From Ruminococcus sp. (GTDB lineage Bacteria > Bacillota > Clostridia > Oscillospirales > Ruminococcaceae): a stretch of 64,000 bases of DNA. This document shows positions 1,085 through 7,233 of the stretch, piece by piece. The notes under the pieces were generated by a model that saw nothing but the letters and a program-made list of their open reading frames with translations, was not told where the DNA came from and did not search any database. The first letter of the stretch is position 1, and the number at the start of each line of letters is the position of its first letter. A program made the position numbers and the translations under genes. The stretch spans positions 21,768-85,767 of the forward strand of contig JAFSSS010000019.1 in the NCBI GenBank assembly GCA_017450925.1. Reading direction: 5' to 3'.

Positions 1085-1212
1085 GAATAAAGAATAAAGA
1101 ATAGTGAATAATCAAGGTATCGCCTCCGGCGATGATCTTTGAGATCTGTCCGCAAAGCGGACACCTTAATTATTCACTATTCTTTATTCTCTATTCTTTA
1201 TTCTTTATTCAC
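1085..1212 (-). repeat. Interspersed repeat family A, copy 1
   Basis: Two AT-rich arms (about 28 bp at 1085-1112, complementary to about 1169-1212) enclose two short GC hairpins: ATCGCC-tcc-GGCGAT at 1119-1133 and GTCCGC-aaa-GCGGAC at 1148-1162. They are bounded by AAGGT and ACCTT. The reverse complement of the core matches copies 2 and 3 (9454-9577, 11664-11794) almost base for base. It lies between two convergent gene ends, and the stop codon plus last codons of the flavodoxin-like gene fall inside its right arm. It may act as a bidirectional terminator. Confidence 0.8.
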
Positions 1213-2551: not shown

Positions 2552-3328
2552 ATGAAAAAAATCGCATCACTTCTTTTGGCGGGCGCTCTGTCCGTTTCCA
2601 TGCTGGCATCCTGCGGCGTGGCTGAAAATACCGTAAACAAGATCGAGGATCTTGACGGCAAGACTATCGGCGTTCAGCTGGGCACCACCGGCATGATCTA
2701 TGCCGAGGACGTTAAGGACGCTACCGTTGAAAAATACAACAAGGGCGCTGACGCTGTCGAGGCTCTCAAAAACGGCAAGATCGACTGCGTTATCATCGAC
2801 AACGAGCCCGCTAAGGTGTTCGTTTCCAAGAACGATGACCTGCGCATCCTGGACGATCCCTTCGTTTCAGAGGACTACGCTATGGCCTTCAACCTCGAGA
2901 ACACCGAGCTTCAGACCAAGGTCAATGCCGCTTTGGCCGAGCTGAAGGCCGACGGCACCATAGACGGCATCATGAAGCACTGGATCGGTGATGAGAAGGA
3001 CGAGAAGAGCTACGAGTCCCCCGCCGATGTGAAGAGAGACAACGGCACCCTCAAAATGGCTACCAATGCCGAGTTCCCTCCCTACGAGCTGAAGAAAGAC
3101 AGCAAGATCGTCGGCATCGACCCCGATATCATGCAGGCCGTGGCTGACAAGCTGGGCATGACCCTTGAGATCGAGGATATCGCATTCGACTCCCTTATCC
3201 CCGAGCTGGAGTCCAAGAAGGCTGACGTAGTCGCCGCCGGCATGACCGTTACCGAGGACAGAAAGAAGAACGTTCTCTTCTCTGACTCCTACGCTACCGG
3301 CGTTCAGGCTATCATCGTCAGGAAGTAA
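2552..3328 (+). CDS. Amino-acid ABC transporter binding lipoprotein, circularly permuted
   Basis: Family 3 (SBP_bac_3) solute-binding lipoprotein: signal peptide with lipobox MLASC (Cys21), then ligand-binding domain, 258 residues in all. The domain order is rotated. Residues about 31-145 (EDLDGKTIGVQLGTTG to GTIDGIMKHWIG) are what is normally the second half (lobe 2 plus the C-terminal part of lobe 1). Residues about 165-258 (GTLKMATNAEFPPYE, then FDSLIPELESKKADVV, ending QAIIVRK) are what normally comes first. A charged linker of about 18 residues joins old C-terminus to old N-terminus; the new ends lie at the inter-lobe hinge. Every expected segment is present once, so this looks like a complete circular permutant rather than a fragment. 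Permease and ATPase follow after a YfhO gene. Confidence 0.85.
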   Translation: MKKIASLLLAGALSVSMLASCGVAENTVNKIEDLDGKTIGVQLGTTGMIYAEDVKDATVEKYNKGADAVEALKNGKIDCVIIDNEPAKVFVSKNDDLRILDDPFVSEDYAMAFNLENTELQTKVNAALAELKADGTIDGIMKHWIGDEKDEKSYESPADVKRDNGTLKMATNAEFPPYELKKDSKIVGIDPDIMQAVADKLGMTLEIEDIAFDSLIPELESKKADVVAAGMTVTEDRKKNVLFSDSYATGVQAIIVRK

Positions 3329-3387: not shown

Positions 3388-5766
3388 ATGGAAAAGCGGG
3401 TAAGGGAAAAATATATCACTGCCTTTGTCATCGCCTTTGCCGGGTGTATGCTCTGCTTTCTGCCGATCATGATCGCCAACGGCGGACGCTTTTTCCTCTA
3501 CGGCGATTACAACAAGCAGCAGATAACCTTTTACACCCACCTTATCGGCGCCGTCCGCTCCGGCGGGCTTTCCGGCTGGGACGCTTTCGCCGATCTGGGC
3601 TCGGACACCGCCGCAAGCTATTCCTTTTACCTGCTGGGCTCGCCCTTTTTCTGGCTGATGACCCTCTTCCCCGCCCGGCTGGCAGTAACGCTGATGCCCC
3701 TTTTCATAGCGCTGAAATCCGGCATTGCCGCAGTGGGCGCCTATGCATACGCGCGGCTCTTCGTGAAGAACACCCGCGCCGCGCTGATCGCCTCCGTGCT
3801 GTTCGGACTGTCGGCCTATAACTCCGTCAACGTGCTTTTCAACCACTTCCACGACGCAGTGCTGCTGCTGCCCTTTATGCTGCTGTCGCTGGAAAAACTG
3901 ATACGGCAGGGCAGGCACGGCTTCTTCGCGCTGACCGTGGCGCTGGCGGCCTTTACGAACTACTATTTCTTCTTCGGGCAGGTAATATTCCTGCTGATAT
4001 ACTTCGTCACGGGGCTTATCTCCGGGCGCTTCGGAATAACAGCAAGGCGCTTTGCGGCTATAGCCCTCGAGGCCGTCTGCGGAACGCTGCTGGCGGCAGT
4101 GCTGCTGCTGCCCTCGGCCATGTCGGTGCTTGGGAACCCCCGGCTGGAGGCCGCCCTTTCCGGGGCTGACCTTATCCGCTACAGCGAGCCCTCGAACTAT
4201 CTGTTCATACTTAAAAATCTGCTCCTGCTGCCGGATATCACGCTGCTGAACAACTTCGGCATGACCACGGCGCAGTCCTCCGGCTGCTTTGCGGGGGCGG
4301 TGTGCGTATTCCCCCTCTGCGGAGCGATAGCCTACTTCCGCTGCGTCAAGGGCAGAGATCACTTCAAGCTGCTGATGACCGTCTGCACCGTGATGATGTT
4401 CGTCCCGGCGCTCAATCAAGCCTTTTCGCTGTTCAACGCCACCTTCTACGGGCGGTGGTTCTATATGCCCGCCCTTATCTCTGCCGTGATGACTGCCCGC
4501 GCCGCCGAAATGTGGGAGCAGGACGGCGCCGCTCTGAAAAAGGGGCTCCTCCCAGCCGCAGTCATAACAGGTGCGGCCGCCGCAGCTTCGCTGACGGTCA
4601 CGCTGCTGGCAAAGTATAACGTCATCGGACTTTCCTTCAGCAACTATGCCTATGCGCTGATACAGCCGGTGTTCGCACTGACGGCTCTTGCTCTTCTGGC
4701 AATGCCCATGCTGCGTCCCGCGCCGGAGGACAGAGGGCTGCTCACACGGCAGCTGCTGACCCGTACAGCCGGCTTCTGCACCGCCGGGATGCTGCTGACC
4801 GTGGGCTGCGGCTATATCTTCCGCGGCACCTCTGAAAGCTATATCATGAACAGCGTCCTTGACTTCCGGGATGAAAACGCTTTCCCGGAGGACAGCGGAT
4901 TTTTCCGCACCTCGTCAGAGGCCAATCTGCAGAATATGCCGGTGATCTGGGGCTATCCCACGGTGAGGTATTTCAACTCCACCGTCGAGCCCTCGGTCAT
5001 AAGCTTTTATAACTCCCTCGGGCTGGCAAGGGGCGTCAAGTCGGATTACGATATCTCGGAATACCCGCTGATGACCCTGCTTTCGGTGAAGTATTACGCC
5101 GACCAGGCCTATTTCGACGACGAGGGCAACGCCCGTCCTGCCGCCGAGGTGCTGCCGGCCTCCGGCAGGAGCTTTACCTTTGTCTCCGGCAGCAGCGATA
5201 TAAACATCTACCGCAACAGCGAGTTCATACCTATGGGCTTTGCCTTTGACCGCTATACCACAAACGCCGCCCTTGAGGGGCAGCCTGTGCTGATGAAGGA
5301 GTATGCCTGCCTTGAGGCACTGGTGCTGGACGAGGAGCAGATAAGCCGCTATGCCGATATACTTGAGGAGTTCGACACCTCGTCCCTCGCGGATGCGGCA
5401 GACCGCTACAGCGATACCTGCGCCGAAAGGCGGAAAAACAGCTGCTCCCGCTTTGAACAGCAGGGCAGCCGCTTTGAGGCAGAGATAAGCCTTGAAAAGC
5501 CTGCGCTGGTGTTCTTCTCGGTACCCTTCTCCGAGGGGTGGAGCGCTAAGGTCAACGGCAGCGATGCCCGCGTTGAAAGGGTGGATAACGGCCTTATGGC
5601 CGTGAGATGTGAGGCGGGGGACAGCAGCATCCTCTTCACCTACAGGAATAAATATACCTCCGCGGGGCTGGTCATCACCCTCTGCGCTGCAGGAGTGCTG
5701 GCAGCATATATCGGGATAAGCATATTTCTTTCCCGGAAAAATAAACAACAAGGAGAAAACCAATGA
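3388..5766 (+). CDS. YfhO-family membrane protein (first of two in window)
   Basis: 792 residues. About a dozen membrane helices in the first 480 residues, then an extracytoplasmic stretch (about 490-750) and a last helix followed by a basic tail (SRKNKQQ). Features shared with the second copy at 21779 include FFLYGDYNKQQ near the start, SYSFYLLGSPFFWL, NVLFNHFHDAVLLLPF, FYGRWFYMPALI and FSEGWSAKVNG. YfhO proteins are GT-C-like; the B. subtilis member is implicated in glycosylating lipoteichoic acid from an undecaprenyl-phosphate sugar. The stop overlaps the permease start (ATGA), so the two are translationally coupled, an unusual place for this gene. Confidence 0.85.
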   Translation: MEKRVREKYITAFVIAFAGCMLCFLPIMIANGGRFFLYGDYNKQQITFYTHLIGAVRSGGLSGWDAFADLGSDTAASYSFYLLGSPFFWLMTLFPARLAVTLMPLFIALKSGIAAVGAYAYARLFVKNTRAALIASVLFGLSAYNSVNVLFNHFHDAVLLLPFMLLSLEKLIRQGRHGFFALTVALAAFTNYYFFFGQVIFLLIYFVTGLISGRFGITARRFAAIALEAVCGTLLAAVLLLPSAMSVLGNPRLEAALSGADLIRYSEPSNYLFILKNLLLLPDITLLNNFGMTTAQSSGCFAGAVCVFPLCGAIAYFRCVKGRDHFKLLMTVCTVMMFVPALNQAFSLFNATFYGRWFYMPALISAVMTARAAEMWEQDGAALKKGLLPAAVITGAAAAASLTVTLLAKYNVIGLSFSNYAYALIQPVFALTALALLAMPMLRPAPEDRGLLTRQLLTRTAGFCTAGMLLTVGCGYIFRGTSESYIMNSVLDFRDENAFPEDSGFFRTSSEANLQNMPVIWGYPTVRYFNSTVEPSVISFYNSLGLARGVKSDYDISEYPLMTLLSVKYYADQAYFDDEGNARPAAEVLPASGRSFTFVSGSSDINIYRNSEFIPMGFAFDRYTTNAALEGQPVLMKEYACLEALVLDEEQISRYADILEEFDTSSLADAADRYSDTCAERRKNSCSRFEQQGSRFEAEISLEKPALVFFSVPFSEGWSAKVNGSDARVERVDNGLMAVRCEAGDSSILFTYRNKYTSAGLVITLCAAGVLAAYIGISIFLSRKNKQQGENQ

Positions 5767-6458
5767 GCGATTTTATTGACAAGCTGAAGGAGACCTTCGT
5801 CACCGACGACCGCTGGCTCTATTTGGTAAAGGGTCTCGGCAACACACTTATCATCACCTTTTCCGCCGCACTGATAGGCATCGTGCTGGGCTTTCTCGTG
5901 GCGATGATACGCTCCACCCACGACAAGACCGGCAAGCTGAAGGTCGGCAATTTCATCTGCCGCATCTACCTTACGGTAATACGCGGAACGCCTATGGTAG
6001 TGCAGCTGATGATAATGTATTTCGTTATCTTTGCCACGCTTAATTCAAGATACAAGATACTGGTCGCTATCCTCTCCTTCGGAATAAACTCCGGCGCATA
6101 TGTGGCCGAGATCGTCCGCTCGGGCATCATGTCGATCGACAACGGACAGTTCGAGGCCGGCTCCAGCCTCGGCCTGAGCTATTCCAAGACAATGCTCTAT
6201 ATCATCCTGCCGCAGGCCTTCAAGAACGTGCTGCCCGCACTGGCCAACGAGGTCATCGTGCTGCTGAAGGAGACCTCGGTTGCCGGCTATATCGGCATGG
6301 AGGATCTTACCAAGGGCGGAGATATCATACGCGCCCAGACCTATCAAGCGTTCATGCCGCTGCTGGCTGTTGCGGCTATCTACCTTATAATGGTAATAAT
6401 CCTTACCTCGCTTGTAGGAAAGCTCGAAAGGAGGCTCGCCAAGAATGAAAAGAGATAA
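5763..6458 (+). CDS. Polar amino-acid ABC transporter permease
   Basis: HisM/GlnP-type permease of 231 residues with about five membrane helices. The EAA loop reads [30 protein letters not shown], the contact site for the ATPase. N-terminal [20 protein letters not shown] is typical of the family. It starts within the YfhO stop (ATGA), with AAGGAG upstream, and overlaps the ATPase gene by 14 bp. With that ATPase and the lipoprotein at 2552 it should form an amino-acid importer; the substrate is not predictable from sequence. Confidence 0.92.
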
Positions 6459-7233
6459 CAACGCTCCCACCCGGGAGGAGACCGAAAAGGCCTTTACCGA
6501 CGAGCTGATCGTCGTCAGCGATCTGCATAAATCCTTCGGCGACCTGCATATCCTAAAGGGCATAAGCACCACCGTCAGACAGGGAGAAAAGGTGGTAATA
6601 ATCGGGCCCTCCGGCTCCGGCAAAAGCACCTTCCTGCGCTGCCTCAACCTGCTCGAGCGCCCTACCTCCGGCTCTATCAAGCTCGACGGCGTTGACCTGC
6701 TCGGGTTCAACGAAAAGGGCGTAAACTTCATGCGCCAGAGCATGGGAATGGTCTTTCAGCACTTCAACCTCTTCCCGCATCTGACTATCAGAAAGAATAT
6801 AACCCTTGCACCGGTCAAGCTGGGCATCCTCTCGGAGGAGGAGGCCAACAGCCGCGCCGATGACCTGCTGGAAAAGGTGGGGCTGTATGACAAGTGCGAC
6901 GCTTATCCGGGACAGCTTTCCGGCGGACAGAAGCAGCGTATCGCTATCGCAAGGGCGCTGGCTATGAACCCCGAGGTCATGCTCTTCGACGAGCCCACCT
7001 CCGCCCTCGACCCCGAAATGGTCGGCGAGGTGCTGGAGCTGATGAAGCAGCTGGCCGAGGCCGGTATGACGATGATCGTCGTCACCCACGAAATGGGCTT
7101 TGCCAAGGAGGTAGCCTCCCGCGTTATGTTCATGGACGACGGACAGATCCTTGAGGAGGCTCCGCCCGACAAGTTCTTCTCCGACCCCAAGAACGACCGC
7201 ACCAAGCTGTTCCTTTCAAAGGTGCTGGTGTAA
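6445..7233 (+). CDS. Polar amino-acid ABC transporter ATPase (GlnQ/HisP type)
   Basis: 262 residues. Walker [10 protein letters not shown] near residue 54, Q-loop [10 protein letters not shown], signature LSGGQKQR near 158, Walker [17 protein letters not shown] near 178, and switch histidine VVTHEMGF near 214. The first 20 residues are an extra charged extension compared with typical GlnQ. The gene overlaps the permease by 14 bp and closes the transporter operon; the next promoter begins about 30 bp later. Confidence 0.94.

Follow-up and report, generated by a model that had tools for sequence, protein, structure and literature searches.

The window, by which we mean the whole 64,000-nucleotide stretch that we analysed of a contig from the gut bacterium Ruminococcus sp., carries near its beginning an intact open reading frame (ORF) on the forward strand (2552–3328). 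It opens with ATG and encodes a lipoprotein of 258 amino acids, a solute-binding protein (SBP) for an ABC importer. An amino-acid permease and an ATPase are encoded together downstream (5763–7233), and between them and the SBP gene sits a gene for a membrane protein of the YfhO family (Table 1). That gene is probably an insertion into the operon within the genus Ruminococcus; among the 80 related loci that scored best out of 541 confirmed stretches, a YfhO match downstream of the SBP occurs only in L038. A polar amino acid would be the likeliest ligand of the importer, because the permease scores above the cut-off of TIGR01726; the NCBIfam equivalog models for the SBP, the permease and the ATPase all fell below their cut-offs. 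Further upstream, between two convergent ORFs, we noticed a perfect 16-base inverted repeat, AAGAATAGTGAATAAT, at 1097–1112 (+) and 1169–1184 (−), with a degenerate third copy as well.

Table 1. Parts of the SBP gene and its downstream neighbours, in window coordinates
Feature	Position	Strand	Evidence
Lipoprotein signal peptide and lipobox (LASC, Cys21)	2552..2614	+	sequence
Module b1 (lobe 2, residues 29–95); usually second, first in the window protein; carries D83 and T45/T46	2636..2836	+	
Module b2 (return strand and lobe 1 C-terminal helices, residues 96–147); usually last, second in the window protein	2837..2992	+	alignment to PDB chains, modules
Linker from usual C-terminus to usual N-terminus (about residues 147/148–164)	2993..3043	+	sequence
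Module A (usual N-terminal part of lobe 1, about residues 164/165–258); carries R237 and F175	3044..3328	+	
YfhO-family membrane protein gene	3388..5766	+	Pfam PF09586, 266.7 bits
Amino-acid ABC importer permease	5763..6458	+	PF00528; TIGR01726, 62.0 bits (cut-off 42.2)
Amino-acid ABC importer ATPase	6445..7233	+	PF00005; GlnQ/TcyN-like, below equivalog cut-offs

We divided the fold into three modules: A, the usual N-terminal part (about residues 164–258 here); b1, which is lobe 2 (29–95); and b2, the return strand and helices (96–147). Canonical proteins run A-b1-b2. The window protein runs b1-b2-A. Its best match in the PDB, AncQR (4zv1; whole-sequence E 5.7e-47), pairs chain residues 107–233 with window residues 26–147 and chain residues 9–104 with residues 164–258, and each of the three best PDB matches aligns in this fashion, as two pieces with their order exchanged. 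Pfam SBP_bac_3 scores 128.5 bits against a cut-off of 26.4, its best stretch laying residues 167–258 on profile positions 1–92. Against a canonical relative, L174, the local alignment score is 343 unrotated, with one half covered, and 633 rotated, the best of 200 shuffles reaching 74. The preliminary description had read the family 3 binding domain as present once with its halves swapped, and these three comparisons bear it out. It had also placed the new termini at the hinge, the lipid anchor on the side of lobe 2, and a charged linker of about 18 residues between the old ends. The cut does fall at the first inter-lobe crossover, between the strand ending QAIIVRK and IEDLDGK; the lipid anchor now lies on the side of lobe 2 and the hinge; and the linker is charged and about 17–18 residues long. 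Cys21 is unchanged in 19 of 19 rows of one alignment (A1) and in 56 of 56 of another (A2), the row-picking rule of which itself requires a lipobox. At the opposite end the hinge strand of module A has become the free C-terminus, followed by the stop codon at 3326–3328. By profile, then, this is an SBP_bac_3 protein; by the canonical order of that family it is not. At E 0.001 it matched three Pfam families only (SBP_bac_3, Lig_chan-Glu_bd and NMT1), and the type I sugar-binding sequence family, that of type Ic SBPs like TpMglB-2, is not among them.

An AlphaFold2 model built on a 56-row alignment (pLDDT 93.7, pTM 0.85) predicts the bilobed fold. Each part superposes on one domain of TmArgBP by VIA-align (residues 24–106 on domain 2, residues 162–253 on domain 1), and both lobes are predicted to form despite the cut, as the preliminary description had expected; strand 248–257 forms the free C-terminus that it had foreseen at the hinge. 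A fold other than that of an SBP, which it had named as one outcome that would undo its reading, is rejected, the predicted fold being that of an SBP. Two residues would contact the ligand in the roles known from LAO and GlnBP structures: R237 for the carboxylate and D83 for the amino group. Both are unchanged in all 56 alignment rows. Among the 60 best chains of each of two PDB comparisons we found no solved SBP_bac_3 structure with the b1-b2-A order; the sole chain in these lists whose best stretch ran continuously across the b-to-A junction was the GlnPQ tandem 6h30, each domain of which is canonical.

How widespread is this order? We call it CP1, and it has company. CP2 (b2-A-b1) has its cut at the hinge crossover that CP1 leaves intact, and in the small CP3 group the cut falls within lobe 2. 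The rotated order of the preliminary description is thus real, as CP1, but the relatives show two or more further rearranged orders. We scanned for modules in all ORFs of loci that had been fetched because they matched, so the counts are no census: 214 distinct ORFs with matches comprised 123 CP1, 34 canonical, 31 b2-A-b1, seven two-unit and one three-unit CP1 arrays, and 18 of other or partial arrangement. Three of the 31 (L154–L156) differ and are CP3, leaving 28 distinct CP2 ORFs. The linkers of the 123 CP1 ORFs, measured from module end to module end, have a median of 16 residues (range 12–28), and 112 of these ORFs have a lipobox-like motif ahead of the first module, with 11 lacking it. 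Seven CP1 genes came out without a lipobox when we picked by start and lipobox (L065, L067, L085, L096, L100, L101 and L114, five of them on Blautia contigs). The CP1 genes L092 and L113 are broken by a stop or a frame break.

The preliminary description had proposed a search for homologues of the same order in other Ruminococcus genomes, and they are there (L038–L040): of 16 genomes sampled from the genus, 10 have CP1, counting the window's own. In a sample of 391 genomes of the class, CP1-shaped matches in ORFs shorter than 350 amino acids occur in 22 (again counting the window's own) and CP2-shaped matches in 35, of which the 29 that were fetched were all confirmed by modules. In the 80 top-scoring loci named above, the hosts of CP1 are Ruminococcus, other Oscillospiraceae, Lachnospiraceae and others. 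Isolates with CP1 include Kineothrix sp. MSJ-39, Parasporobacterium paucivorans DSM 15970 (L082), Acetitomaculum ruminis DSM 5522, Roseburia hominis An869 and Blautia schinkii DSM 10518, and Ruminococcus sp. FMBCY1 has it on a complete chromosome (L103). A tblastn search of plasmids returned only two-piece matches of the canonical type among the best 10 of 133 records.

The CP2 proteins start just before the strand GLKILDTEY and end just ahead of the same point, for example in ...AKAFVAAG. In the third and more distant CP2 clade the proteins begin with the matching strand, KVIDIPLTQEEYAFGV, and their last residues are ...EAPAKFIVEAFNELN; because these strands correspond, the cut sites of the three clades agree to within a few residues. 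Over the three modules, CP2 L152 is 76% identical to canonical L188 and L153 74% identical to L189, the window protein and L174 sharing 60%. The linker of L153, ...FTTIEEGKLIMATN, is similar to the spacer ahead of A in L189, its canonical relative (...ITIEKGKLIMATN), as expected if the old ends were joined. In CP3 the chain begins inside lobe 2, and the first strand and helix of that lobe come at its end. L154 aligns with the CP1 protein L119 over residues 30–238 (score 508), its last 36 residues are the start of b1 absent from its front, and against L189 it scores 320 when rotated to canonical order and 218 unrotated. From the alignment with L119 and the higher rotated score, CP3 looks like a CP1-type order with the cut shifted into lobe 2. 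In the family sampled for CP3, 13 of 19 genomes had a match, L154–L156 being those checked by modules; eight of the 13 matches are near full length (one with an internal stop), two are short at contig ends, and three run from the A part onward.

Did each order arise once? Our main tree holds 97 rows of concatenated modules (31 of 34 canonical, 17 of 28 CP2 and 49 of 123 single-unit CP1 rows, tandem units being excluded), with 216 columns kept, and is unrooted. It omits long or distant rows (L001, L051_CAN, L068_CAN, L119, L144–L146, L157, L158, L166, L172, L173, L198 and L200), and CP3 (L154–L156) was left out of the trees for low b1 coverage. In it CP2 forms three separate clades, and the starred branches force three changes (bootstrap range 3–3). 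Two of these clades join canonical L189 (100/99) and L188 (100/93), and the third sits on a long branch of 1.18. Quick trees of A only and of b1b2 only agree, placing L153 with L189 (SH-aLRT 98 and 97) and L152 with L188 (93 and 92), so in L153 and in L152 alike both halves trace back to a single gene lineage rather than to a fusion between different paralogues. Canonical order is inferred to be ancestral from its wide spread. A larger FastTree of 202 rows counts 19 changes for six labels and nine for three orders; it joins long branches, and it puts canonical L033 inside a CP1 clade, which the 97-row tree does not.

The rival that survives best says that CP1, CP2 and CP3 each arose by one ancient permutation, and that gene conversion, transfer or tree error produced the scatter. 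The modules are short, after all, with 216 columns kept, and many inner branches of the tree are weak (35 of 94 are starred). Forcing CP1 into one clade lowers lnL by 66.1 and is rejected at p-AU 0.035 only, so that separate origins of CP1 are weakly backed. A single CP2 clade fares far worse (lnL lower by 78.2, p-AU 0.0009) and is rejected, and each young CP2 group has both its halves beside the same canonical gene. We regard one origin per order as unlikely.

Permuted units also come in series. There are six two-unit b1-b2-A genes (seven ORFs, one of them a cut copy) and one three-unit gene, arrays that are compatible with a duplication route; of the fetched tandem ORFs, canonical order is confined to L126 and to L081, which is matched in part, the rest being permuted already. 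We met no partly trimmed intermediate of a duplication, such as A-b1-b2-A in a single-SBP gene, in the fetched loci. The genome of the window has a second permuted importer on contig C59 (L002, 421–2739, −), a 773-residue ORF with two CP1-order units and then, by eye, a permease-like stretch. L116, L202, L203 and L204 are ORFs of about 1000–1290 amino acids with at least three SBP units, b1 being the first module and A the last SBP module. By length, 106 of the 123 CP1 ORFs run up to 420 amino acids and 17 are longer; 14 of these 17 have a lipobox-like motif before b1 (to the eye that of L198 is doubtful), the exceptions being L020, L136 and L200. Fusions with both a lipobox and a permease would have a tether at each end, both starting from the hinge. 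We aligned ten permuted SBP–permease fusions, chosen among those bearing a lipobox, and set aside a poor model of such a fusion (10 rows; pLDDT 68.8, pTM 0.38). One CP1–permease fusion lies on a contig titled uncultured Bacteroides (L099), amid Lachnospiraceae fusions in the FastTree; the contig is probably mis-binned.

Such arrays raise the thought that the permuted SBP is no closed monomer but works by domain swapping, in dimers or longer chains where the A module of each copy pairs with b1-b2 of its neighbour. TmArgBP, a relative, does swap its C-terminal helix. That SBP halves can exchange segments is described in PMC9815098. The single chain, however, yields a model of high confidence on its own, and single-unit genes are the commoner form among the fetched loci; we think domain swapping quite improbable.

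A second functional rival would have the permuted SBP bind no ligand and serve as a sensor or decoy, and the YfhO gene that parts it from its permease in the window might be taken that way. The binding residues, however, are retained. R237 is present in 137 of 138 CP1 units (absent in one) and D83 in 134 (absent in four), and both are present in 28 of 28 CP2 and 36 of 36 canonical units. The importer is retained too: in 77 of the 80 loci a permease and/or an ATPase is fused to the SBP or lies within 4.5 kb downstream, the three others being L040 and L073, at contig ends, and L098. Among 15 wider loci, the SBP–permease–ATPase order holds in 10 of 10 CP2, two of two CP3 and two of two canonical loci, and the fifteenth (L231, 5262–8714, −) is an 1151-residue ORF of two CP1-order units with an ATPase match. 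Since CP1, CP2, CP3 and canonical loci share this setting, the SBP seems to have been rotated without leaving its operon, and a sensor or decoy strikes us as very doubtful. As for an assembly, binning or gene-calling artefact that fused two fragments, a danger the preliminary description had flagged and one that an assembly 66.6% complete in 83 contigs might invite, we consider it ruled out for practical purposes, because the CP1 order recurs in independent assemblies, among them isolates and a complete chromosome (L103, L082, L106) and other genomes of the genus, and in 123 distinct ORFs, most of them with the lipobox in place.

The best reading of these sequences is recurrent circular permutation at the inter-lobe crossovers with the ligand-binding residues kept. 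We hold with good confidence that the window gene encodes the SBP of a polar amino-acid ABC importer, permuted at the first inter-lobe crossover as part of a recurrent permutation in Bacillota. The module order, the fold prediction, the conserved residues, the operon and the separate CP2 clades carry this reading directly; the amino-acid ligand, the full function and the duplication route are our inference. Both lobes would fold within one chain and close on an amino acid, with R237, in the part that is now last, holding the carboxylate and D83, in the part that is now first, the amino group; the loaded protein would then dock on the permease from the downstream gene. Among such importers of Bacillota, the SBP has on this reading been permuted more than once, giving CP1, CP2 and the lobe 2 cut of CP3, each time with a short linker joining the old ends and the operon retained. 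Most likely the SBP gene was in each case first duplicated in tandem and the copies were then trimmed, so that the new start and stop came to lie at surface crossovers. A bolder version is that the same cuts were made independently many times (three or more for CP2, one or more for CP3, and perhaps more than one for CP1), hinge cuts being tolerated and ends at the hinge being useful for tethering. We put this forward tentatively, as a possibility that falls a little short of persuading us. Such ends would permit a tether by lipid, by permease fusion or, in the lipobox-bearing permuted fusions, by both.

If this is right, recurrent permutation would offer a natural series of replicates in one protein and one operon. 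Natural circular permutations often separate proteins too diverged for the route or the consequence to be traced. Here genes that share an operon type and as much as 76% of their residues have different orders, and such close permuted and canonical pairs make the path, how well hinge cuts are tolerated, and any effects on binding, closing or tethering directly testable. There is a practical side as well: order-dependent profiles match permuted genes as two pieces, so tools that expect canonical order can misread them.

The preliminary description knew of no described natural family of this sort. Natural permutation of SBPs is in fact already known. TpMglB-2 (Tp0684), the 'type Ic / cluster Bc' protein described in PMC4990184, is of type I and permuted, and was shown there to bind glucose and to close; like the window protein it is a naturally permuted lipoprotein SBP of an ABC importer, found also in Gram-positive gut bacteria. 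It differs in its type I sugar-binding fold and its ligand, its cut lies within the N-lobe and adds a fourth crossover, and one permuted order is described there. The glycine-betaine SBPs OpuAC and ProX are permuted type II proteins, in pairs less than 24% identical, noticed from structure (CPSARST, PMC2395249); they belong to another family with another ligand, and the available part of that source describes no recent events between close relatives. For routes there are the permutation-by-duplication and fission–fusion models, as set out in PMC3320104. Among the literature matches listed, judged by title and the start of the abstract, we found no permuted family 3 SBP for amino acids.

With the canonical SBP_bac_3 proteins (type II / cluster F: GlnH, HisJ, LAO, ArtJ, TmArgBP, AncQR) the permuted ones share lobes, ligand residues, lipoprotein export and operon, and identity to canonical genes reaches 76% for CP2 and 60% for the window protein. 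What sets them apart is the rotation of the modules, the placing of anchor and free C-terminus at a hinge crossover, and the joining of the old ends. The tandem SBD–permease fusions of the GlnPQ type (6h30) come close, being tandem SBPs fused to a permease with a B1-A2 junction that matches the permuted order; GlnPQ, however, runs A-b1-b2 twice, whereas most arrays among our fetched loci start with b1 and end with A. As far as our literature searches show, what is new beside these systems is the amino-acid family, the presence of several orders among relatives and the repeated origin of one cut.
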